From a bacterium (GTDB taxonomy: Bacteria > UBP7 > UBA6624): a stretch of 22,875 nt of DNA. Every line of letters starts with the position of its first letter. Position 1 is the stretch's first letter. The stretch covers positions 1 through 22,875 of the forward strand of contig JACNFQ010000061.1 in the NCBI GenBank assembly GCA_014384545.1, in the 5' to 3' direction. The position numbers and the translations under genes are program-made. Below are positions 4,629-22,846 of the stretch, piece by piece. A model generated the notes under the pieces. It saw only the letters and a list, made by a program, of their open reading frames with translations, was not told the origin of the DNA and did not search any database.

Positions 4629-5833
4629 CCGATTCGTTGATTCACGATTGGAATCTGATTGACTCAACACCCCCACCCACCCCACCCCAATTGGATGATG
4701 AGACACTTCGGGATGGACTCCAAAGCCCCTCAGTAAAGACTCCTTCTTTAGAAGCGATGGTTGAGATTCTTCATCTCATGTCCAAACTGGGGATTGAATC
4801 AGCGAATATCGGTTTACCGGGGGCAGGACCCCATGTGGAAGCATCTGCCCTTCGCCTCGCTCAAGAAATCGTCTCCGAAGACTTAGGTATCTTTCCCAAC
4901 TGTGCCGCTAGAACCCTCCAAGTCGATATTGAACCGATTGTCAGAATCCAGCAGGCGACTGGTCTCAGGATGGAGGCGAGTACTTTTATTGGGTCATCCC
5001 CGATCCGACAATATGCCGAGGGTTGGACGATAGAACAGATGATTCAATCGACCCAAACAGCTGTCTCTTTTGCCGTGGAAAACGGCTTAGAAGTGATGAT
5101 GGTTACCGAGGATACAACCCGAGCCCATCCCGATACCTTGAAGGCTCTCTATGGCACGGCGATTGCTTGCGGGGCAAAACGCATCTGTGTTTGCGATACT
5201 GTAGGACATGCAACTCCTGATGGTGTGCGCAGTTTGGTCGGTTTTGTTCGGGCCTTTGCAGACGAAGAGGGTGATGATATTCAGGTGGATTGGCATGGCC
5301 ATCGAGACCGAGGACTGGACTTGGTGAACACTCTGGTCGCAGTCGAGTCAGGAGCAAACCGTATCCATGGCACCGCATTGGGTATTGGCGAGCGTGTGGG
5401 GAATACCCCCATGGACCAAATCTTGGTCAACCTGAAACTCTTGGGTTGGATCAAGCGAGACCTCTCTTTTCTTTCAGATTATGTCCATAAGGTGAGCAAG
5501 GCGACGGGGGTTCCCATCCCAAAGGGTTATCCCGTGATTGGTGAAGACGCATTCAGAACAGGGACAGGTGTCCACGCTGCTGCTGTCATCAAGGCGATGG
5601 ACAAGGGGGACCACTGGTTGGCTGACCGTGTTTATTCGGGAGTGCCCGCAGGAGATTTTGGGCTTAGGCAGAAGATTGAAGTGGGACCGATGAGCGGAAA
5701 ATCGAATGTCGTTTTTTGGTTGGAAGAGCACGGCTATGAAGCGAGCGAAGAGAGAGTTAATCGTCTCTTTGAGGCTGCTAAGGTCTCTCGTGAAATATGT
5801 GACGAAGATCTCCTCCACAACTTGGCTCAATGA
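4625..5833 (+). CDS. DRE-TIM acyltransferase, 2-isopropylmalate synthase-like, lacking the regulatory domain
   Basis: A 402-residue member of the isopropylmalate/homocitrate/citramalate synthase family. It shows the DRE-type signature DDETLRDGLQ (residues 24-33), the metal-binding HGHRDRG at 224-230 (both His kept, the usual HxHND reading HGHRD) and GTALGIGERVGNTPMDQ (249-265), the GxGxxxGN-type family motif. These enzymes condense acetyl-CoA with a 2-oxo acid through a metal-bound TIM barrel. Beyond the barrel about 100 residues form the connecting subdomains; there is no room for the LeuA allosteric dimer domain of about 120 residues, so leucine feedback may be absent or different. Position after leuD with an ATGA overlap makes 2-isopropylmalate synthase the best guess; citramalate or homocitrate synthase is possible. 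ATG 4625 is preferred to an upstream in-frame start inside leuD. Confidence 0.8.
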   Translation: MTDSLIHDWNLIDSTPPPTPPQLDDETLRDGLQSPSVKTPSLEAMVEILHLMSKLGIESANIGLPGAGPHVEASALRLAQEIVSEDLGIFPNCAARTLQVDIEPIVRIQQATGLRMEASTFIGSSPIRQYAEGWTIEQMIQSTQTAVSFAVENGLEVMMVTEDTTRAHPDTLKALYGTAIACGAKRICVCDTVGHATPDGVRSLVGFVRAFADEEGDDIQVDWHGHRDRGLDLVNTLVAVESGANRIHGTALGIGERVGNTPMDQILVNLKLLGWIKRDLSFLSDYVHKVSKATGVPIPKGYPVIGEDAFRTGTGVHAAAVIKAMDKGDHWLADRVYSGVPAGDFGLRQKIEVGPMSGKSNVVFWLEEHGYEASEERVNRLFEAAKVSREICDEDLLHNLAQ

Positions 5834-6600
5834 TTCTCTTCCCCTTTCTCTCTTTTCTCGTTCTTGAATTCCCTTTCTACCCTTCCTCCTCCTTGAACTA
5901 CAAACCTGTTGGATTGGAAGAGCCTTCGGGTATCGCATGGCATCCTCAAAGGGGGACACTCTTTGTGGTGGGAGACGAAGGGCATTTCGCTGAGATTGAT
6001 GAAGAAGGCAAATTAGTCGGTGAGGTTCTTCGTCTAGAGGGCGGATCTTGTGAAAGAGACTTGGAGGGGATTGCGGTAGACCCACGAAATGGGAATCTCC
6101 TCTTACTAAGGGAACCCTCATGGGAGATTCTTTCGCTCGTTCCTGGCTCAGCCAAACCTCAGAGAATCTGGCGTGTTCCCGATGCCCCTCCCCCTTGTAG
6201 TGACGCGCTGTGGGGGCTGGAGGGCATTACCGTTAAAGGGATGGACCCAAGTCGTGAAGGGTGGCTCGTTGTTTTGGTCGCAAAACAACGGATACCTGCA
6301 CTCTTTATTGAGCTCTCTCTCCCCCCCACAGAGAGCTTGGAGTCCCCCCAGCTAATCTCTAGGAAGAACGCCCCCATTTCTTCGGTTTCGGAGATTCTCT
6401 GGGAACAGAGCACTGAGACTTTATGGGTCTTGGAGGGGTTTAGAGGGCGTCTTCATCAAGTGACAGAGGGAATGAATGCAGGAGTTCGGCTGCTCCCATT
6501 CCCCTTAGCCGAGGGTATGGCGTTTACACCCTCGGGAGATCTTTGGATAGCCGATGATTTTGGAGGGGTTTTTCGCCTAGCGTGGCGTCCAGCCACCTAG
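5830..6600 (+). CDS. SdiA-regulated/esterase-like-phytase type beta-propeller protein
   Basis: A 256-residue protein starting at ATG 5830 in an ATGA overlap with the preceding synthase gene. The first 15 or so residues are hydrophobic and aromatic (MILFPFLSFLVLEF), which could be a short, poor signal peptide or anchor. The body shows propeller blades of the SdiA-regulated (YjiK) type: EPSGIAWHP, LFVVGDEGHFAEID, DLEGIAVDPRNGNLLLLREP, GLEGITV and a closing AEGMAFTPSGDLWIADDFGG. Repeats of the form LEGI or GMAF plus LW/LL and an acidic residue suggest about five to six short blades. The molecular function of this family is not established; some relatives are linked to esterase or phytase-like folds. 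The stop codon shares CTAG with the convergent gene. Confidence 0.65.
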   Translation: MILFPFLSFLVLEFPFYPSSSLNYKPVGLEEPSGIAWHPQRGTLFVVGDEGHFAEIDEEGKLVGEVLRLEGGSCERDLEGIAVDPRNGNLLLLREPSWEILSLVPGSAKPQRIWRVPDAPPPCSDALWGLEGITVKGMDPSREGWLVVLVAKQRIPALFIELSLPPTESLESPQLISRKNAPISSVSEILWEQSTETLWVLEGFRGRLHQVTEGMNAGVRLLPFPLAEGMAFTPSGDLWIADDFGGVFRLAWRPAT

Positions 6601-15626: not shown

Positions 15627-15655
15627 ATTCTACACCTGCACCCCCGGTGTAGGAT
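15627..15655. promoter_or_regulatory. Inverted repeat carrying paired divergent -10 boxes (tRNA versus B12 leader)
   Basis: The plus strand has GGTGTAGGAT at 15646-15655. The minus strand has GGTGTAGAAT (15636 back to 15627). The two 10-bp arms differ at one base and flank a 9-base C-rich centre. Each arm ends in a -10-like hexamer: TAGGAT pointing to the riboswitch (start expected near 15662) and TAGAAT pointing to the tRNA (start expected near 15620). The boxes are 17 bp apart, so each occupies the place where the other promoter's -35 would be. As RNA the same sequence could form a 7-bp hairpin (CTACACC/GGTGTAG), but no T tract follows. It could also be a dyad operator. Confidence 0.5.
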
Positions 15656-15661
15656 AAAGTT

Positions 15662-15890
15662 GTAGGCGACAACGCTCCCATAGGGGGCTAAGTCTAATAG
15701 GGAAACCCGTGAAAACCGGGTGCGGCCCCCGCCACCGTGAGTTTGGCAAGGTGTGTCTGAAAGACTCAGCCACTGTCCAAGCGGGTCTTCTGGCTCCTTG
15801 GATGGGAAGGCGATACACCCATGGCCAAAAGCCGGGAGACCTGTCTGCAGATTTTCTTGGACTTTCGGTCCAGTTTCGGGAGGAAACGAT
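15662..15890 (+). ncRNA. Cobalamin (B12) riboswitch leader
   Basis: The leader shows the conserved parts of the cobalamin aptamer in order. There is an early hairpin GCTCCC/GGGGGC (15674-15688), then CTAATAGGGAA (15694-15704), and the CCCG-tGAAAAC-CGGG hairpin at about 15705-15720. The core GCCCCCGCCACCGTGA (15725-15740) follows, then GCCACTGTCC (about 15769-15778), GGGAAGGCGA (about 15804-15813) and the B12 box AAGCCGGGAGACCTG (15829-15843). Downstream, TGGAC/GTCCA (15858-15872) and GTTTC/GAAAC (15873-15887) form adjacent hairpins; the second holds GGGAG of the ribosome-binding site in its loop. No terminator with a T tract lies before the gene, so control is more likely translational. The AATAGGGAA element suits the adenosylcobalamin class. 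Boundaries are approximate. Confidence 0.93.
15878..15883 (+). promoter_or_regulatory. Shine-Dalgarno GGGAGG inside a hairpin loop
   Basis: GGGAGG lies eight bases before the ATG at 15892 and fixes that start. Five of its six bases form the loop of the 5-bp GTTTC/GAAAC hairpin (15873-15887). Its G run could pair with the C run at 15726-15730 in the riboswitch core, which would hide the ribosome-binding site when ligand is bound. The pairing is inference. Confidence 0.6.
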
Positions 15891-15891
15891 A

Positions 15892-17076
15892 ATGGTCAGT
15901 AAGAGATTGGGAATAAGTTCACAGGTGTGGCGAGATCTCGGTCTTGCGGTTATTCTTTTTGCGGGCTCGGCTTGTGGCTCTGGTTCAAGTCTCTCCCCCT
16001 TAGTTTCGCCCTCATCCACATTACTCATTCTGGCTAGTGATTTCACGACGGGAACGATTACCGATGTAAGGGGGGGGGAATGGACTGTTGATACGGGTTC
16101 TGGTTTGGCTGGTCCTGATGCGGCGGCGCGCTCTTTTGCCGAGCCAACCCAAACTGTGTGGATTCTGAACAGAGATTCCTTGGGTGCAGGGAACAACCTC
16201 GTTCGCGTGGGTGTCGATGGTGCTACTCCAGAGAAAGTTGCCCAATGGCAAACAGGATTCCAGAGTAACCCCCATGATCTTTGGGTGGAACAGGGTGTCG
16301 CTTTTATTACTCGGTACGACTTGCCCAGTCTCTTAGTATTGGACAGTGAAACGGGTGAAGGTTTGGGGACGATTGACTTAGGTGGGCTTCCTTCATTAGG
16401 TGCGTGTTCGGCTCCTGATGGGCTCCCTGAAATGGATGAGATTTTCAAATATGGAGATTCTCTCTTCGTCACGCTCCAATGTCTTGACCGATCCGACCCT
16501 CAATTGTGGACGGCGGCGACGACCGGGAAGATTGCCCAAATCGATATCCTGACCCACACGATGGTTAATCTCTACGATTTGCCCTCTTGCCGCAACCCCC
16601 ATGATGCGGGAGTTTCTGGAGACCATCTTCTCATTTCCTGTACAGGAGATTATGAAGGAGGAAACGATGGTGCACTCATTTCCTTTTCTTTCGTGGACAA
16701 GGCAGTTACTGTTCTTGCACCTGAATCCGATTTTCCGGGCGAAATCATGGGTCTTGGCGTGGGCGTTGATGACGAGGTTTTCTTGATTCTTTATGATTCT
16801 CAGACTACGTTCCAAACGACAGTCGCGCGATGGGACCCCATTGATGGTATTTCCTTAGTCCATGAACCCCAAGATGGATATTGGCACAACCGTATCGCTG
16901 TAAAGGAAGGGATGTTGTGGATGGCTGGTGGCTCCACTTGGACGAACACGGCAGGGGTCTATCGCCTAGATCTAGATACCCTCCTACCAGTAGACACCTC
17001 TCCTCTTTCAACGGGGTTGCCCCCTCAGGTAATGGTCTGGGTTGGAGATCCCTATTTTGGTGGAGGAGGTCATTAG
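15892..17076 (+). CDS. Predicted B12-regulated beta-propeller lipoprotein (BtuG-like candidate)
   Basis: A 394-residue protein. The N-terminus is a lipoprotein-type signal: basic residues, a hydrophobic stretch (LGLAVILFAG), then Cys28 in AGSAC, a slightly non-standard lipobox with Gly at -3, followed by a Gly/Ser linker. The mature part looks like a YncE/NHL-type beta-propeller with recurring short blades: LLILASDFTTGTI, VWILNRDS, NPHDLWVEQGVAFITRYD, SLLVLDSETGE, DSLFVTLQC, GKIAQIDI, NPHDAGVSGDHLLISC, GVYRLDLDT. NPHD occurs twice, at 126-129 and 235-238. The start is fixed by GGGAGG; the frame stays open back to 15709 only through the riboswitch. Bacteroides BtuG, also a propeller surface lipoprotein under riboswitch control, binds cobalamin. 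I infer an analogous corrinoid-capture role, but homology is unproven. A nine-G run lies at codons 60-63. Confidence 0.75.
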   Translation: MVSKRLGISSQVWRDLGLAVILFAGSACGSGSSLSPLVSPSSTLLILASDFTTGTITDVRGGEWTVDTGSGLAGPDAAARSFAEPTQTVWILNRDSLGAGNNLVRVGVDGATPEKVAQWQTGFQSNPHDLWVEQGVAFITRYDLPSLLVLDSETGEGLGTIDLGGLPSLGACSAPDGLPEMDEIFKYGDSLFVTLQCLDRSDPQLWTAATTGKIAQIDILTHTMVNLYDLPSCRNPHDAGVSGDHLLISCTGDYEGGNDGALISFSFVDKAVTVLAPESDFPGEIMGLGVGVDDEVFLILYDSQTTFQTTVARWDPIDGISLVHEPQDGYWHNRIAVKEGMLWMAGGSTWTNTAGVYRLDLDTLLPVDTSPLSTGLPPQVMVWVGDPYFGGGGH

Positions 17077-17082
17077 AGGCTT

Positions 17083-17640
17083 ATGAAGAAAAGTCTGAGT
17101 ATTCGGAACCTGACTCTAGTCGGTATCATTTTTCTGGCTGCTGGGATGCGCTTGATTCCCCACATACCTAACTTTACACCTATCGCTGCTATGGCACTCT
17201 TCGGAGGCGTTCAGTTCTCAAAGAAGAGACTTGCCTACTTGCTCCCGTTGGGTGCGATGGTACTAAGTGATCTCATATTGGGGATTTTCGTCACCAAAAC
17301 AGGGTGGTGGCACAATGGGATTCCTTTCGTTTATGGAGCGATTGCCTTCACCGTCTATCTAGGTTCACGATTGGGAAAAAATCCTTCAGCGTTGGCTATT
17401 GGAGGTGGTGCCCTATCAAGTTCAGTCTTCTTCTTTCTCTTGACCAACTTGGGCGTATGGCTGACGGGTTCCCTTTACCCAAAGACATTGGAGGGGCTTG
17501 GGTCTTGTTTCGTGGCAGCGCTCCCATTCTTTCGGAATAGTCTGATGGGAGATTCCCTTTACACCCTCGCTCTATTTGGCGGGTTTGCTTTGGCGGCTCA
17601 ACGGTGGCATCTTCTCCGAAGAGACTTGGTAATCCGCTAG
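17083..17640 (+). CDS. Small polytopic membrane protein, candidate corrinoid/cobalt S-component-like transporter
   Basis: A 185-residue protein with five to six membrane segments (about 10-24, 33-43, 51-70, 79-95, 104-128, 155-173). It has a family-like signature: MRLIPHIPNFTPIAAMALFGG near the start, then PLGAMVLSDLILG, TNLGVWLTGSLYP and ALPFFRNSLMGDSLYTLALFGG. I believe this is the uncharacterised family catalogued as DUF6580, whose size and topology resemble ECF-transporter S components; I cannot verify the accession. It starts six bases after the lipoprotein stop with AGAGG just ahead, so it should share the cobalamin-riboswitch transcript. The likely role is uptake of cobalamin, a precursor or cobalt. 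The solitary S component BtuM is a precedent, but its functional Cys is not evident here: the only Cys is residue 142. The stop shares CTAG with the convergent gene. Confidence 0.7.
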   Translation: MKKSLSIRNLTLVGIIFLAAGMRLIPHIPNFTPIAAMALFGGVQFSKKRLAYLLPLGAMVLSDLILGIFVTKTGWWHNGIPFVYGAIAFTVYLGSRLGKNPSALAIGGGALSSSVFFFLLTNLGVWLTGSLYPKTLEGLGSCFVAALPFFRNSLMGDSLYTLALFGGFALAAQRWHLLRRDLVIR

Positions 17641-18971
17641 GAATCCTTCCAGCGGGATATATCCCACAATTCCAAGCCCGTTGTGCGGGCCACCAAGAGA
17701 TGGCTTCCACGCATTCCAAACGCTGTAGCAGAACCAGTACCCAATCGGAACGCATCAGCCCCCACAATCTGAACCCCAAAAGCACCAGCAACGACACCCA
17801 GTCCAGACCCTTCTGCCACTTCAAGCGCTACGCTGGGTAAAGAGAAACCCTTCCAACCCTGTCCCTCATCCTCCCAAAGAGTACCATCAATCGTGGATAC
17901 CATTTTCTTGCTCCCAATCCGAATACCTGATTGAGGAAACTGATGGAGAACCTTCTTTTCAGGAAATGAAACCAGTTGCCCTCCATCATCCACAGCCAAC
18001 ACACCACTCTCTTGCCCAAAGAGATGGTTGAGTCCCCCCTCACATTCTCCCACCTCTTCCCAACCAGAGCCCTTTCGTCTAAGGAGTCTTCCATCCAACA
18101 TACCCAACCAGCAACTCCCATCACCCCAAGCGATACTGATGGGGATGCCCTCAATCTCAAAGACCTCCTTCTCTACACAAATCGTTGAATCCCACAGAAC
18201 GACTTTCTCATCTAGCCCCAGCGAAAGCAGCCCATCGTCTCCATGGCACATCGCAATGATACCCCCTTTGTGGGCTCGTGCCCGGGCGATTTCAGAGAGA
18301 TGTCCCTTGTCTTGAGATAAGAGGATAAGTTCACCTGATGACAATCCCAGCGCCCATCCGTGGTCTCCGGTAGCTAGAACGACTATGACATTCTCAACGG
18401 GGATTGATGAAAGGGGTCTTTCACCTGCTAAGACGCGCATTTCTACAATCCAAGGAGCGTTCATTCCCATCCCCAGCGCTTCCCGAGCTTTTTGGAGGAC
18501 AGTATCCCAATCCCCTCTCTTCTGGGCTTTCCGAGCCTCACTTTCAACGCGATTCTCCGCTTGGGCTCTTCTTTCCTGTGCCCGCTCTTCCAAAAACCTC
18601 TTTGCCCACTTATGCTCCGGTCTAATCGCAACGATTGATCGGGCACACTCTTCGGCCGTATCACCCAGAGCCTCCTTCCCCAAAGACTCTTTCTCCTTGA
18701 TGGTTCCTGCCTCTGCCTTTTCCAAGCCTTCCTTCGCCCAAGGAACTAATGGAGCCTTTGTAACGATCCTAGAAAAAAGAGCGATTGCTTCGTCCCAATC
18801 CTCACTCTTGAGGGTACGAAATGCCTCATCTTTTTTCCCTTCAGCCCAGTTGAGGGCATCAACGGATGCCTTTCCCCCCTCTATCAACCAACTTTGACAA
18901 TGAGGGCACAAGTTGGCACCTCTCAAAATCGGCTCTTGGCAATAAGGGCAAGGAGTCCGCTCTTTAGTCAT
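17637..18971 (-). CDS. Zinc-ribbon, TPR-like and beta-propeller protein
   Basis: A 444-residue protein with three parts. Residues 8-25 form a zinc ribbon (CPYCQEPILRGANLCPHC; Cys8, 11, 22, 25). Residues about 35-180 are helical TPR-like repeats (SEDWDEAIALFSRIVTKAP, DTAEECARSIVAIRPEH, KRGDWDTVLQKAREALGM). From about 195 to the end lies a WD40-like propeller with blades such as HGWALGLSSGELILLSQD, GLLSLGLDEKVVLWDS, SCWLGMLDGRLL and LLVARTTGLELWDIS. No signal peptide or membrane span is seen, so it is probably cytoplasmic. The start ATG 18971 overlaps the stop of the upstream gene by eight bases, and that gene also joins TPR-like helices to propellers. Function is unknown; a scaffold or sensor for protein complexes is the most one can infer. 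Confidence 0.7.
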   Translation of the reverse strand: MTKERTPCPYCQEPILRGANLCPHCQSWLIEGGKASVDALNWAEGKKDEAFRTLKSEDWDEAIALFSRIVTKAPLVPWAKEGLEKAEAGTIKEKESLGKEALGDTAEECARSIVAIRPEHKWAKRFLEERAQERRAQAENRVESEARKAQKRGDWDTVLQKAREALGMGMNAPWIVEMRVLAGERPLSSIPVENVIVVLATGDHGWALGLSSGELILLSQDKGHLSEIARARAHKGGIIAMCHGDDGLLSLGLDEKVVLWDSTICVEKEVFEIEGIPISIAWGDGSCWLGMLDGRLLRRKGSGWEEVGECEGGLNHLFGQESGVLAVDDGGQLVSFPEKKVLHQFPQSGIRIGSKKMVSTIDGTLWEDEGQGWKGFSLPSVALEVAEGSGLGVVAGAFGVQIVGADAFRLGTGSATAFGMRGSHLLVARTTGLELWDISRWKDS

Positions 18972-21450
18972 TATGGAGTGCCTCCACAGAGAATAGCGTC
19001 ATCTTTTCTCCTTGAGCCGCCACCAATCCCTTCCCCTCATGGGAGAAGGTAACGAAGACCCGACCCTCCCCCTGGTCATAGAGGAAAGAACCGACAAGAG
19101 AGCCATCACGGTTTCGGACTTCAATTTCCCCTCCAGTTTCGTAAGCGAAAAGTGAGCCATCTGCCGTCGTTGCAATATCGTAGGTTTTTTGATCAATTTC
19201 AGGTCTCAATTCCAAGAGACGGGTTCCTTCTTCTCGCTCTTCAGGATTTCCACTAAGCCATATTTGACCAGCACTATCCCCCACGACCAATAGGGGTGGC
19301 TCCCCCGACAAGATTGCCAAGGCAGTAATCTCTGCCCCAGAAGGAATATCCATCCACCCTCCCTCAGTAAAGTTCTCCAAGGAAAAAAGACTCGCTCGGC
19401 GTCCAACAGCGACAGCAATCCAATCTCCATGGACTGCAATTTGTGAAGGGGAAGCGCGTGAAGACATCGTTCTTGCACCCAAGCCATCCGTCCAAACGAC
19501 GATCCCTACTTTTGACATCACCCTCATCAAAGCACTTTTTCCATCATCACCTACCACAAAAAGGTCAAAGACCTGTCTTTCAGGGCTCACCAGCGAGCTA
19601 CCTCCACTCAACCATAGCCCCTCTCTGTCGGCAAGGAGAATTCCCCGAGGCGATTGACCAATTGCTTGGATGGGTAATGGCCTACCAGTCGGGCTTACTT
19701 CAAGAGGCACCCCGCCTGGCATCCAAGCTGTAAATCCCCCCTTCGTTCCCAAGAGGAACTCTTGGGCGGACGCGTCCCAAGCCAACGAGAAGATATCTTC
19801 AGAGAGAGTCGCCGAAGAATGGATACCCTCTTGATCTGCCACCTGCCACAGCGCCTCGCTTGCTAGTACGTTTCTTGGTTCAATCGCAAGGATGCGACCT
19901 GCGGCATCTCTCACAGAGTTTGTATCCCCGCCAGCCAAAGCGATATTCAAGTCTGATTGTGCCTCAAGGAGATCCCTCCTGATACCAGCGAGTTCCATCC
20001 AAGGGGTGGGCGTCTCAACCAAAGAGCTAGCCTCGTCCAGCAGAGCTGTAATCTCCTCAGCTCCTCCATCTGAAGAGAGGAGCGTCATTACCTTAGATTC
20101 CAACTGGCTCAACAACCCACTGGTAGCATTCTCTAACATCGGTAGCACCCATCCAAGAAGGGGTCTTGTGGGGAGCCGCAATAGGAGATCTCTTGCTTCT
20201 GAAAACCGATTCTCTTCTATCGCACTCTTTACACTTGATTGTGTCGCCGAAAAAGCACTCTGCGTGTACTTGGCAACGAGGTCGCTTACGCCCGGGTCAC
20301 TCTGCCATGCGGCCAAGTCATCAAGTGTGCTGGCAGCCTCAGTCCAATCCTCGTCCTGAATAGCACCCCTAGCTTTCTTGACAACATTTCTAGGGGGATG
20401 TTCACCACCACCCCCTTGTCCGATACTCCAAATGAGTGTCCCAAGAAGAAGAACGAGAGCCCCAATCACCTTGGGGTCCTTTAGGGAGACTCCTGCCCTA
20501 ACCTCTTCATCAACGACATCCTTCTCTTCATCACGCTCCTCACCCACAGAAACGGGTGCAATCACCCTCTTGGGTGTCGTTCTTTCAACAGAAGGATGTC
20601 TTCCCCATGTACGGACCCCTCCATCAGCAAAGACGCCCGAAAAGACCCTTCCATCAGGAGACCAAGACATAGAAGTAATGCCTTCTGTCTTTTCCATTTC
20701 ATTCTTCATGCTGATTCCCGTTCTCCAATTGAAGACAGAAAGGGGTTCATATTTTTGGCTAAGGGCTAAGAGAGGATGGCAAGGCGAGAAGGTGATTGTT
20801 GAAACTGTACCTTCAAGATTATGTGAGGAAATGGGTGTCCAATACCCCGAGCGGTGGATGACGACAGCTCCATCCTCTGAACCTGTTGCAAATGTCGTCC
20901 CGGATGGGTGAATGGCAAGTGATGTGATGGTGTCTCTATGGGAAGCGATTTCTGCTAGGAACGAACCGTCTTTATTCAAGATATGGAATGTCGGTCTTTC
21001 ACCTACTACCACACAAGAACCATCCGGGAATAAGCCGAGTCCATGGATGCTCCCTATTCCCACTTGGGTCTCCCAAAGAAGCTCCATCGAACTGTGATCC
21101 CAACAACGAATCCTCCCATCCTGCCCCCCACCAAGCACTCTTTGGGCATCACCGGCTACCCCATAAACGAATCCTTCTGGTCCTACCAACCGCCCGATAG
21201 CCGTTCCATCTTCTGGGTTTAGGATGTGAATAGGTCCTTTCCCCCCCACCACCAAAGCCCCTGAGGGGAGAAAAGAGAGAGAGAGAGCCATCCCCCCAAA
21301 CCCCTTTGCGACGCGTATGCGTCGCCCTGTTTCTAAATTGGAAAAGAGGACGCGATCGTCCAACCCGCCCGTAACCAAACTCTTGCCATCGGGGCTAAAC
21401 GCCAGGGATGCTCCCTCGTTAAGGTGTCCCGCTAAGTTGTATGGCTTCAT
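18964..21450 (-). CDS. Membrane-spanning double beta-propeller protein with TPR-like middle region
   Basis: An 828-residue protein when started at ATG 21450; the 37 codons upstream are not family-like and run into the divergent promoter region. Residues 1 to about 285 form a WD40 propeller (GASLAFSPDGKSLVTGG, GGGQDGRIRCWD, TSLAIHPSGTTFATGSEDGAVVIH, ITSMSWSPDGRVFSGVFADGGVRTW). An acidic linker (about 304-320) leads to one membrane span, VIGALVLLLGTLIWSIG (328-344), then a Gly run. Residues about 350-550 are TPR-like helices, and the last 275 form a second, more divergent propeller. The two propellers would therefore lie on opposite sides of the inner membrane. The partner gene downstream overlaps it by eight bases. 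No enzyme motif is visible. A minus-strand TATAAT at 21484-21489 is a plausible -10. Confidence 0.72.
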   Translation of the reverse strand: MKPYNLAGHLNEGASLAFSPDGKSLVTGGLDDRVLFSNLETGRRIRVAKGFGGMALSLSFLPSGALVVGGKGPIHILNPEDGTAIGRLVGPEGFVYGVAGDAQRVLGGGQDGRIRCWDHSSMELLWETQVGIGSIHGLGLFPDGSCVVVGERPTFHILNKDGSFLAEIASHRDTITSLAIHPSGTTFATGSEDGAVVIHRSGYWTPISSHNLEGTVSTITFSPCHPLLALSQKYEPLSVFNWRTGISMKNEMEKTEGITSMSWSPDGRVFSGVFADGGVRTWGRHPSVERTTPKRVIAPVSVGEERDEEKDVVDEEVRAGVSLKDPKVIGALVLLLGTLIWSIGQGGGGEHPPRNVVKKARGAIQDEDWTEAASTLDDLAAWQSDPGVSDLVAKYTQSAFSATQSSVKSAIEENRFSEARDLLLRLPTRPLLGWVLPMLENATSGLLSQLESKVMTLLSSDGGAEEITALLDEASSLVETPTPWMELAGIRRDLLEAQSDLNIALAGGDTNSVRDAAGRILAIEPRNVLASEALWQVADQEGIHSSATLSEDIFSLAWDASAQEFLLGTKGGFTAWMPGGVPLEVSPTGRPLPIQAIGQSPRGILLADREGLWLSGGSSLVSPERQVFDLFVVGDDGKSALMRVMSKVGIVVWTDGLGARTMSSRASPSQIAVHGDWIAVAVGRRASLFSLENFTEGGWMDIPSGAEITALAILSGEPPLLVVGDSAGQIWLSGNPEEREEGTRLLELRPEIDQKTYDIATTADGSLFAYETGGEIEVRNRDGSLVGSFLYDQGEGRVFVTFSHEGKGLVAAQGEKMTLFSVEALHND

Positions 21451-21483
21451 AATGTTGCCGATCTGGTGTTTCCAGACCCAGCG

Positions 21484-21489
21484 ATTATA
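21484..21489 (-). promoter_or_regulatory. Candidate -10 box TATAAT for the double-propeller operon
   Basis: On the minus strand a perfect TATAAT lies 33 bases above ATG 21450, which would give a leader of about 27 bases. No TTGACA-like hexamer is found 16-18 bp upstream and no strong Shine-Dalgarno precedes the gene. It sits in the 64-base divergent gap before the protease gene. Confidence 0.45.
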
Positions 21490-21502
21490 TGGTCGGATTC
21501 GA

Positions 21503-21508
21503 TAGGAT
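21503..21508 (+). promoter_or_regulatory. Candidate -10 box TAGGAT for the S8 protease gene
   Basis: TAGGAT is followed by six bases and the GTG start codon at 21515. With normal -10 to start-site spacing, transcription would begin at the GTG itself, giving a leaderless mRNA. No Shine-Dalgarno precedes the GTG. The same hexamer precedes the B12 riboswitch. Confidence 0.4.
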
Positions 21509-21514
21509 AGTCTT

Positions 21515-22846
21515 GTGCACCCTCTATTCGCATTGCTACTTCTCTCTACCCCCACCATCATCGTTCAGAATCCATCTGGTCAATCCGTGGAAGTCGCTGC
21601 ACAGAGGCTCGTGGTGGGATGGGAAGCGAATACGCTCTTCACCGCATCCCCCAACGAGACAACGCTCTTTTTCGGTTCTGGAGGAGAGCGTATTACGACT
21701 ATTGAACTCCCAACGGGAGTTGATCTCCACCAAGAAAGAGAGCGTCTCTCTGCTCTAGAAGGCGTAGCTTGGGTTGAATATGACAACCTAAATAGACTCC
21801 ACGCTTTACCCAACGACCCCACTTGGGGAGATCAATGGACACTCCAAGTCATGAATATGGAGACCGCTTGGGATATTGAGACGGGTGACTCCTCCATAGT
21901 CGTAGCCGTTCTTGACAGTGGATTTGACCTAACCAATACGGGTATTGGGTACGCTGCTTGGGACCCAGCAACTGAACTCATTGACTTTGGGAATAACGAT
22001 GGCGATCCCACTTGGACCACTGCATCTTTGTGCAATCCGGGTGCTTTCCATGGGACGGCTACAGCGGGACTTATTGCTTCAAATGGGAACGATGGACAAG
22101 GCATTACGGGTGTGGGATGGGGGCTGAACGTTTTACCCGTAAAAGTGATGCGGGATAGTGATTGTGGCATTTGGGATTCGGATTGGACCGCTGCGTTGAA
22201 CTGGATTGTGGATAACCGGCCCGATGTGCGCGTGGTAAATATCTCTTTTGGTAGTGAGGGGACGGGTTCGCTCCAGAGTGCTGCTATTGAGAAAGCATGG
22301 AATGGGGGCGTCCTGGTGGTCGCCTCGGCGGGCAACTGTGGCGACCCTGCTACTTGGCAAGATAATGGTTGCACAACTCTGAACCCTCTGTTCTTCCCAG
22401 CCAGCCTTGACCATGTGATTGCTGTTGCAAGTACAGATGAAGATGATGGGCGAAGTCTCTTTAGTGAACATGGAAATTGGATTGATCTTTCTGCGCCGGG
22501 TGGGTTCTCTAGTCCCATAGGGAAACCGATGCCCGTTTGTGGTCTTTCTCCTGGAGCCCCTGGGTGGGGTCCTATTGCAACGGATATTACAGGATCGGAT
22601 GGGTATAACACGGGGGGGTCGGGTCCTGGGTCTCTTTCACAGGCTTGTGATCCTTCGGGGGGGCGCTACTATAGTTTTTTTGGGACGAGTGCCTCTGCTC
22701 CCTATCTATCAGGACTCGCTGCCTTGGTCTTGTCCAAGACTCCCTCCCTCACCAACCAAGAGGTATGGGATCGGTTGTTGGGAACAGCGAGGATTCCTGC
22801 GGGGTGGAACAGTAGTGAGATGGGTGTAGGGGTGGCTGATGGTTGA
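21515..22846 (+). CDS. Secreted subtilisin-like serine protease (S8)
   Basis: A 443-residue protein from GTG 21515. Residues 3-17 (PLFALLLLSTPTIIV) are a short secretion signal. Residues about 28-92 resemble an I9-like propeptide ending in LEGVAWVEYD, followed by the usual DPTWGDQWTLQ entry to the catalytic domain. The triad is complete: Asp134 in VVAVLDSGFD, His179 in FHGTATAG, Ser392 in FGTSASAP; the oxyanion Asn274 is in ASAGNCG. Several Cys pairs suggest disulfides and an extracytoplasmic location. It is 400-odd residues with no extra C-terminal domain. The end, GVGVADG then TGA, stops where many relatives continue with a final helix (GxGxVDAxxAV-like), so either the protein is naturally short or a frameshift lies near. 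It diverges from the double-propeller gene across 64 bases. Confidence 0.92.
   Translation: MHPLFALLLLSTPTIIVQNPSGQSVEVAAQRLVVGWEANTLFTASPNETTLFFGSGGERITTIELPTGVDLHQERERLSALEGVAWVEYDNLNRLHALPNDPTWGDQWTLQVMNMETAWDIETGDSSIVVAVLDSGFDLTNTGIGYAAWDPATELIDFGNNDGDPTWTTASLCNPGAFHGTATAGLIASNGNDGQGITGVGWGLNVLPVKVMRDSDCGIWDSDWTAALNWIVDNRPDVRVVNISFGSEGTGSLQSAAIEKAWNGGVLVVASAGNCGDPATWQDNGCTTLNPLFFPASLDHVIAVASTDEDDGRSLFSEHGNWIDLSAPGGFSSPIGKPMPVCGLSPGAPGWGPIATDITGSDGYNTGGSGPGSLSQACDPSGGRYYSFFGTSASAPYLSGLAALVLSKTPSLTNQEVWDRLLGTARIPAGWNSSEMGVGVADG

Follow-up and report, generated by a model that had tools for sequence, protein, structure and literature searches.

The window, which is the whole 22,875-nucleotide stretch of DNA that was analysed, contains a cobalamin riboswitch followed on the same strand by two closely spaced genes. 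The features of this locus are the following:

15647..15862, + strand: cobalamin riboswitch aptamer (RF00174; cmscan 77.9 bits, E 6.2e-18)
15873..15887, + strand: possible expression platform, a GUUUC-GGGAG-GAAAC hairpin over the Shine-Dalgarno sequence (predicted fold, tentative)
15892..17076, + strand: BtuG-like beta-propeller lipoprotein of 394 aa with lipidation at Cys28, a proposed corrinoid binder (translation, homologues, profile, model)
17083..17640, + strand: DUF6580 (PF20221) six-helix membrane protein of 185 aa, a proposed solitary BtuM-like corrinoid importer (Pfam 1.4e-53, model)

A sequence-only reading of the window had described a full set of cobalamin-aptamer motifs at this place, which is confirmed by Infernal: the match to RF00174 covers the full-length model (positions 1-189), and its 77.9 bits compare with a gathering score of 31.5. 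This is the only cobalamin riboswitch found in the window genome, which is 79% complete, and a syntenic copy exists in a genome of the same family, G001 (L108:7909-8099). The Shine-Dalgarno sequence GGAGG is located at 15878-15882, 9 nt 5' of the lipoprotein ATG. The hairpin predicted over it has a z-score of -0.43, no better than shuffled sequence, and a promoter and terminator scan gave results near chance level. Six bases separate the lipoprotein stop from the DUF6580 ATG, in agreement with the spacing and the 185-residue protein given in the sequence-only reading. Since the downstream gene (17637-18971) runs in the opposite direction, its end meeting the gene pair, the riboswitch appears to serve just the lipoprotein and the DUF6580 gene, as had been proposed. 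The reading also held in that no btuB, btuF or ECF module stands beside the pair, such genes being found neither in the window nor elsewhere in the incomplete genome. On the minus strand, positions 17637-21561 encode two WD40-type proteins, one of them with an N-terminal zinc ribbon, that occupy the same place in G001.

Fold and conserved residues of DUF6580

The small membrane protein belongs to the Pfam family PF20221, or DUF6580, with 181.9 bits against a gathering threshold of 27 (E 1.4e-53). The family is unannotated and its name was not found in the literature searched. Across GTDB species genomes, members are encoded at 576 loci or more, 80 of which were kept as a sample, and the phyla concerned include Bacteroidota, Planctomycetota, Ignavibacteriota, Omnitrophota, Myxococcota, Patescibacteria groups, Fibrobacterota, Verrucomicrobiota, Elusimicrobiota, Acidobacteriota and others; no viral relative was found in BFVD.

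The AlphaFold2 model of the protein (58 rows) displays six transmembrane helices with a pLDDT of 95.2 and a pTM of 0.90. Among solved structures, those of BtuM with B12 bound resemble it most (Z 15.0, 167 residues aligned, rmsd 3.2), and the ECF S components all score under BtuM, at Z 13.2 and below, while CbiM shows a related fold with a Z of 9.6. Foldseek also ranks BtuM first, with weak E-values. The S-component-like nature attributed to this protein by the sequence-only reading, which had suggested a structure comparison, is thus borne out. At the sequence level, when the PDB, in which BtuM is present, was searched with the profile and with the single sequence, no BtuM appeared up to E 10, the single-sequence search returning nothing or chance matches.

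Strong conservation in the family is seen for R23, P26, H27, N30, P33, D63, Y84, N122, W126, Y132 and G138, and, following the topology of S components, we infer that most conserved residues face the periplasmic side. In BtuM, an invariant cysteine of loop 3 serves as cobalt ligand (PMC6072759). Among 57 DUF6580 sequences, a conserved Cys is absent from loop 3, and its position 77 is occupied by a His in 38 and by a Tyr in 16 of them; we infer that a histidine may be the cobalt ligand in DUF6580. Given that both the cysteine and the sequence tests fail, DUF6580 is not claimed as a member of the BtuM family, the claim being that it works like BtuM.

Corrinoid need and a BtuF-like gene at the DUF6580 position of a sister genome

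The window genome, G000, encodes a fusion of a methylmalonyl-CoA-mutase-type protein with its G protein, together with a separate B12-binding subunit, as well as a PduO adenosyltransferase. The presence of the mutase and of the adenosyltransferase indicates that this bacterium needs corrinoids. Methionine synthase was also considered as a B12 client and was set aside, the weak MetH match coinciding with the B12-binding subunit encoded at the mutase locus. In addition, an Omp85 protein, found in two of the three incomplete genomes of the family (G000, G001 and G002), G000 included, suggests an outer membrane. Nevertheless, a TonB plug was detected in none of the three, so that the passage of a molecule of ~1.3 kDa through this outer membrane is unexplained.

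The closest genome bearing the lipoprotein is G001, from the same family as the window genome. The two have in common the gene order gatB, gatA, rplT, infC, thrS, cysS, zinc-ribbon coiled-coil protein and tRNAs, which continues with the riboswitch and the lipoprotein and then, beyond the position of DUF6580, with two WD40-type proteins, synteny thereby being kept on both sides. At the DUF6580 position itself, G001 carries a Peripla_BP_2 (BtuF-like) gene, and genes for a FecCD permease and an ATPase are located elsewhere in G001 and G002. In the window genome, a family search for FecCD and Peripla_BP_2 detected neither of them. At 79% completeness, each single absence has a roughly 1-in-5 chance of being due to a gap, and BtuCD could therefore lie in one; the missing BtuF is exempt from this reservation, the operon being intact. 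These comparisons of gene content point to the replacement of BtuCDF by DUF6580 in the window lineage, this being the presumed direction of the change. As to the origin of the gene, in the DUF6580 tree the window protein clusters with three sequences from planctomycetes (support 89/84). A horizontal gain from Planctomycetota was considered and is compatible with this grouping, which is suggestive and not proof.

S components are usually partnered by EcfT, BtuM and some BioY being solitary (PMC6072759). In this context, the pair could be devoted to corrinoid uptake with DUF6580 acting as a substrate-binding part in need of an energising partner, either a distant ECF T component with its ATPases or BtuCD, encoded elsewhere or in assembly gaps. 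The S-component fold of DUF6580, the normal reliance of such proteins on EcfT (PMC6072759) and the 79% completeness of the window genome are in line with such a partner. We nevertheless regard it as unlikely, since CbiQ/EcfT was found in none of G000, G001 and G002 and in 8 of 50 DUF6580 genomes, where it perhaps belongs to cobalt transporters, and since BtuM and some BioY function without an ECF module (PMC6072759). The lack of a detected CbiQ/EcfT in the other 42 genomes, whose completeness is not given, is as expected if DUF6580 acts alone.

DUF6580 and the lipoprotein across bacteria

The sequence-only reading had proposed to look for shared riboswitches among the homologues of both proteins. 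For DUF6580, a cobalamin-class riboswitch (Cobalamin, AdoCbl or AdoCbl-II) is present in 28 of the 65 loci scanned with Rfam, and in 22 of the 65 it precedes DUF6580 in the same orientation; an estimate based on a few switches per genome, and not on a computed control, puts the chance expectation for the ~540 kb scanned at about one or fewer. The 83 adjacent proteins encoded on the same strand include 9 TonB receptors, 6 DUF71/Diphthami_syn_2 and 4 DUF4430 proteins, 3 PduO and 2 CobO adenosyltransferases and 2 BtuF-like proteins, counts that are lower bounds because a simple ORF picker missed the DUF6580 gene in 7 loci. One subgroup of DUF71 consists of predicted B12-salvage proteins (PMC3541065).

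Two loci illustrate a fuller arrangement. In L053, a riboswitch is found with a BtuB-like receptor, a secreted protein, a BtuG-like propeller, DUF6580, DUF71 and CobT/CobS-like genes, all named from sequence, and L086 combines a riboswitch, a TonB receptor, a propeller, DUF4430 and DUF6580. The earlier suggestion of a lineage-specific solution stands in part: among the lineages examined, the two-gene form lacking BtuB is confined to that of the window, whereas both proteins belong to widespread riboswitch-linked families, and BtuG-DUF6580 pairs alongside BtuB also occur in L053, L086 and L027.

Other arrangements were observed as well. In Patescibacteria (L036, L021, L074, L077 and L082), the DUF4430 and DUF6580 genes adjoin or lie close together, and several of these loci stand behind AdoCbl-II riboswitches, such a switch being found at L036 and L021, and have ribonucleotide reductase or PduO genes as neighbours. 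By its gene content, the DUF4430-DUF6580 combination may represent a parallel minimal B12 module made of a binder plus DUF6580. MetH-like genes are found 3' of DUF6580 at L052:6405-10085 and at L068:4248-5240, 11 bases away in the latter, and carboxyltransferase genes lie just 5' of DUF6580 in L023, L065 and L070, B12-dependent metabolism being thus co-located. At L028:168-1155, DUF6580 is flanked on both sides by AdoCbl (RF01482) riboswitches, and a BtuB-like gene follows the second of them.

Cobalamin riboswitches also control the uptake of cobalt and of precursors. DUF6580 could for this reason be thought to move a related compound, namely cobalt, a lower-ligand base or cobinamide, instead of complete cobamides, and the related fold of CbiM (Z 9.6) and the CobT/CobS-like genes of one DUF6580 locus (L053) would fit such a role. 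It is however quite improbable in our view: the B12-bound BtuM is the best structural match, with CbiM and every vitamin S component behind it, the recurring neighbours of DUF6580 are corrinoid binders and BtuB and not CbiQO, and G000 relies on corrinoid enzymes.

Regarding the lipoprotein, its signal peptide ends in LFAGSA-C28 after a hydrophobic stretch, with a lipobox that is weak at position -3, and comparison with Pfam, NCBIfam and PHROGs assigned the protein to no family. Of 289 other genomes examined, 26 contain a homologue, one of them from the same family as the window genome and the rest sharing only the domain level with it. Of the 19 homologue loci scanned, 18 carry a cobalamin riboswitch 5' of the gene and in its orientation, so that riboswitch sharing holds for this protein too, and most of the 19 loci contain a BtuB-like receptor recognised by its C-terminal motif; the 3 such receptors tested are TonB receptors according to Pfam. 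As a single sequence, the window lipoprotein finds no match in the PDB. When a family profile of 13 members is searched against the PDB, the best of all chains is BtuG2 8BMX (E 6.6e-8), followed by BtuG3 and related BtuG entries, the identity of these entries as BtuG proteins being taken from PMC10404256. In the same line, a profile-profile comparison with the propellers encoded at Bacteroidota and Ignavibacteriota DUF6580 loci gives an E of 5.7e-14, the corresponding values for two unrelated window proteins of propeller type being 0.22 and 0.06.

The propeller lipoprotein had been likened to BtuG from its sequence, and the structural comparison points the same way: the AlphaFold model is an all-beta propeller of low confidence (pLDDT 64, which does not fix whether the blades number seven, as in BtuG), and BtuG-family entries fill the first 11 places among its structural matches (Z 26.0-27.1), BtuG-like sequences having been part of the model alignment. 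While BtuG has been described as exclusive to Bacteroidetes on BlastP evidence (PMC6143338), the profile and homologue searches argue for a divergent BtuG-like family that would extend far wider than this phylum. That the lipoprotein is a generic YncE-type propeller without a corrinoid role, co-regulated by chance, is very unlikely, for, common as propellers are, and even if a sequence search with the single window protein does not reach BtuG and its model is of low confidence, the riboswitch recurs 5' and on the same strand at those 18 of 19 loci in distant genomes, BtuG proteins head the PDB matches of the family profile and two other propellers of the window fail to match the lipoprotein family.

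Besides, two tandem lipoprotein homologues were observed at L126:5986-8797, behind a BtuB-like gene and a cobalamin riboswitch. In the window itself, positions 5830-6600 (+ strand) encode a 256-aa secreted protein with an SdiA-regulated/phytase-like propeller match, unrelated to the BtuG-like family.

Proposed mechanism and comparison with known systems

Taken together, we consider it probable that the window contains a B12-repressed two-gene operon for corrinoid scavenging, in which a BtuG-like binder and a solitary BtuM-like importer replace BtuCDF. The minimal corrinoid capture-and-uptake module put forward by the sequence-only reading is thereby largely supported, through the riboswitch-linked families and the predicted BtuG-like and BtuM-like folds, which suggest binding and transport as the functions. 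In such an operon, as the aptamer family suggests, scarce cobalamin would let the riboswitch permit expression of both genes and plentiful B12 would repress them. The lipoprotein, judging from its family and fold, would capture corrinoids at the cell envelope, and DUF6580 would carry them across the cytoplasmic membrane as BtuM does, with no ECF module, BtuCD or ATPase partners. By taking the place of BtuF, DUF6580 may have made BtuCD dispensable. Once imported, the corrinoid would be adenosylated by the PduO-type enzyme and serve the B12-dependent acyl-CoA mutase. The crossing of the outer membrane is not covered by this scheme.

A more far-reaching version would hold that cobamide import in a bacterium possessing an outer membrane dispenses with a TonB-dependent receptor, BtuCDF and an ECF module and proceeds solely through a BtuG-like lipoprotein and a BtuM-like DUF6580 whose ligand is a His and not a Cys, and that the whole family consists of B12 transporters in a dozen or more phyla; we put it forward tentatively, and its truth is doubtful.

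Many B12-dependent bacteria have no recognised importer. If the proposed operon is right, a function that can be tested would be available for a Pfam domain of unknown function encoded at no fewer than 576 loci of GTDB species genomes, the BtuG family would be extended well past Bacteroidetes, its reported sole home (PMC6143338), and a natural swap of BtuF for DUF6580 within one operon would have been caught. It also raises the question of which route B12 takes through the outer membrane where no TonB receptor is found.

The BtuG-like and BtuM-like parts are recognisable, and their combination and this lineage were not described in the literature searched. With BtuG, the surface B12-binding lipoprotein of Bacteroides (BtuG2 8BMX, BtuG3 8OKV), the window protein shares its lipoprotein nature, its predicted beta-propeller and its position behind a cobalamin riboswitch. 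It differs by its occurrence outside Bacteroidetes, by an identity of 13-16% in structural alignment and by the lack of a partner BtuB, no TonB plug being detected in the genome. BtuM, the solitary B12 transporter of Proteobacteria (8C7P, 8OVV), resembles DUF6580 in its size of ~185 aa, its six helices, its S-component fold and its B12 context without an ECF module, whereas DUF6580 has no detectable sequence similarity to it, lacks a counterpart of Cys80 and occurs in other phyla. The ECF S components RibU, ThiT, BioY and FolT have the fold in common with DUF6580 (Z 9 to 13) but score under BtuM, and no EcfT was detected in the window genome. BtuCDF, the ABC importer of cobalamin, would do the same job, and its BtuF-like gene stands at the DUF6580 position in the G001 operon; DUF6580 is however an unrelated membrane protein, and FecCD and Peripla_BP_2 were undetected in the window genome. 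Finally, the DUF4430-DUF6580 pairs (L036, L074 and L077) differ from the window pair in their binder, which is DUF4430 and not a propeller, but they resemble it in that EcfT/CbiQ was undetected in their genomes and in that a small binder-like protein is encoded directly 5' of DUF6580, in L036 behind an AdoCbl-II riboswitch.
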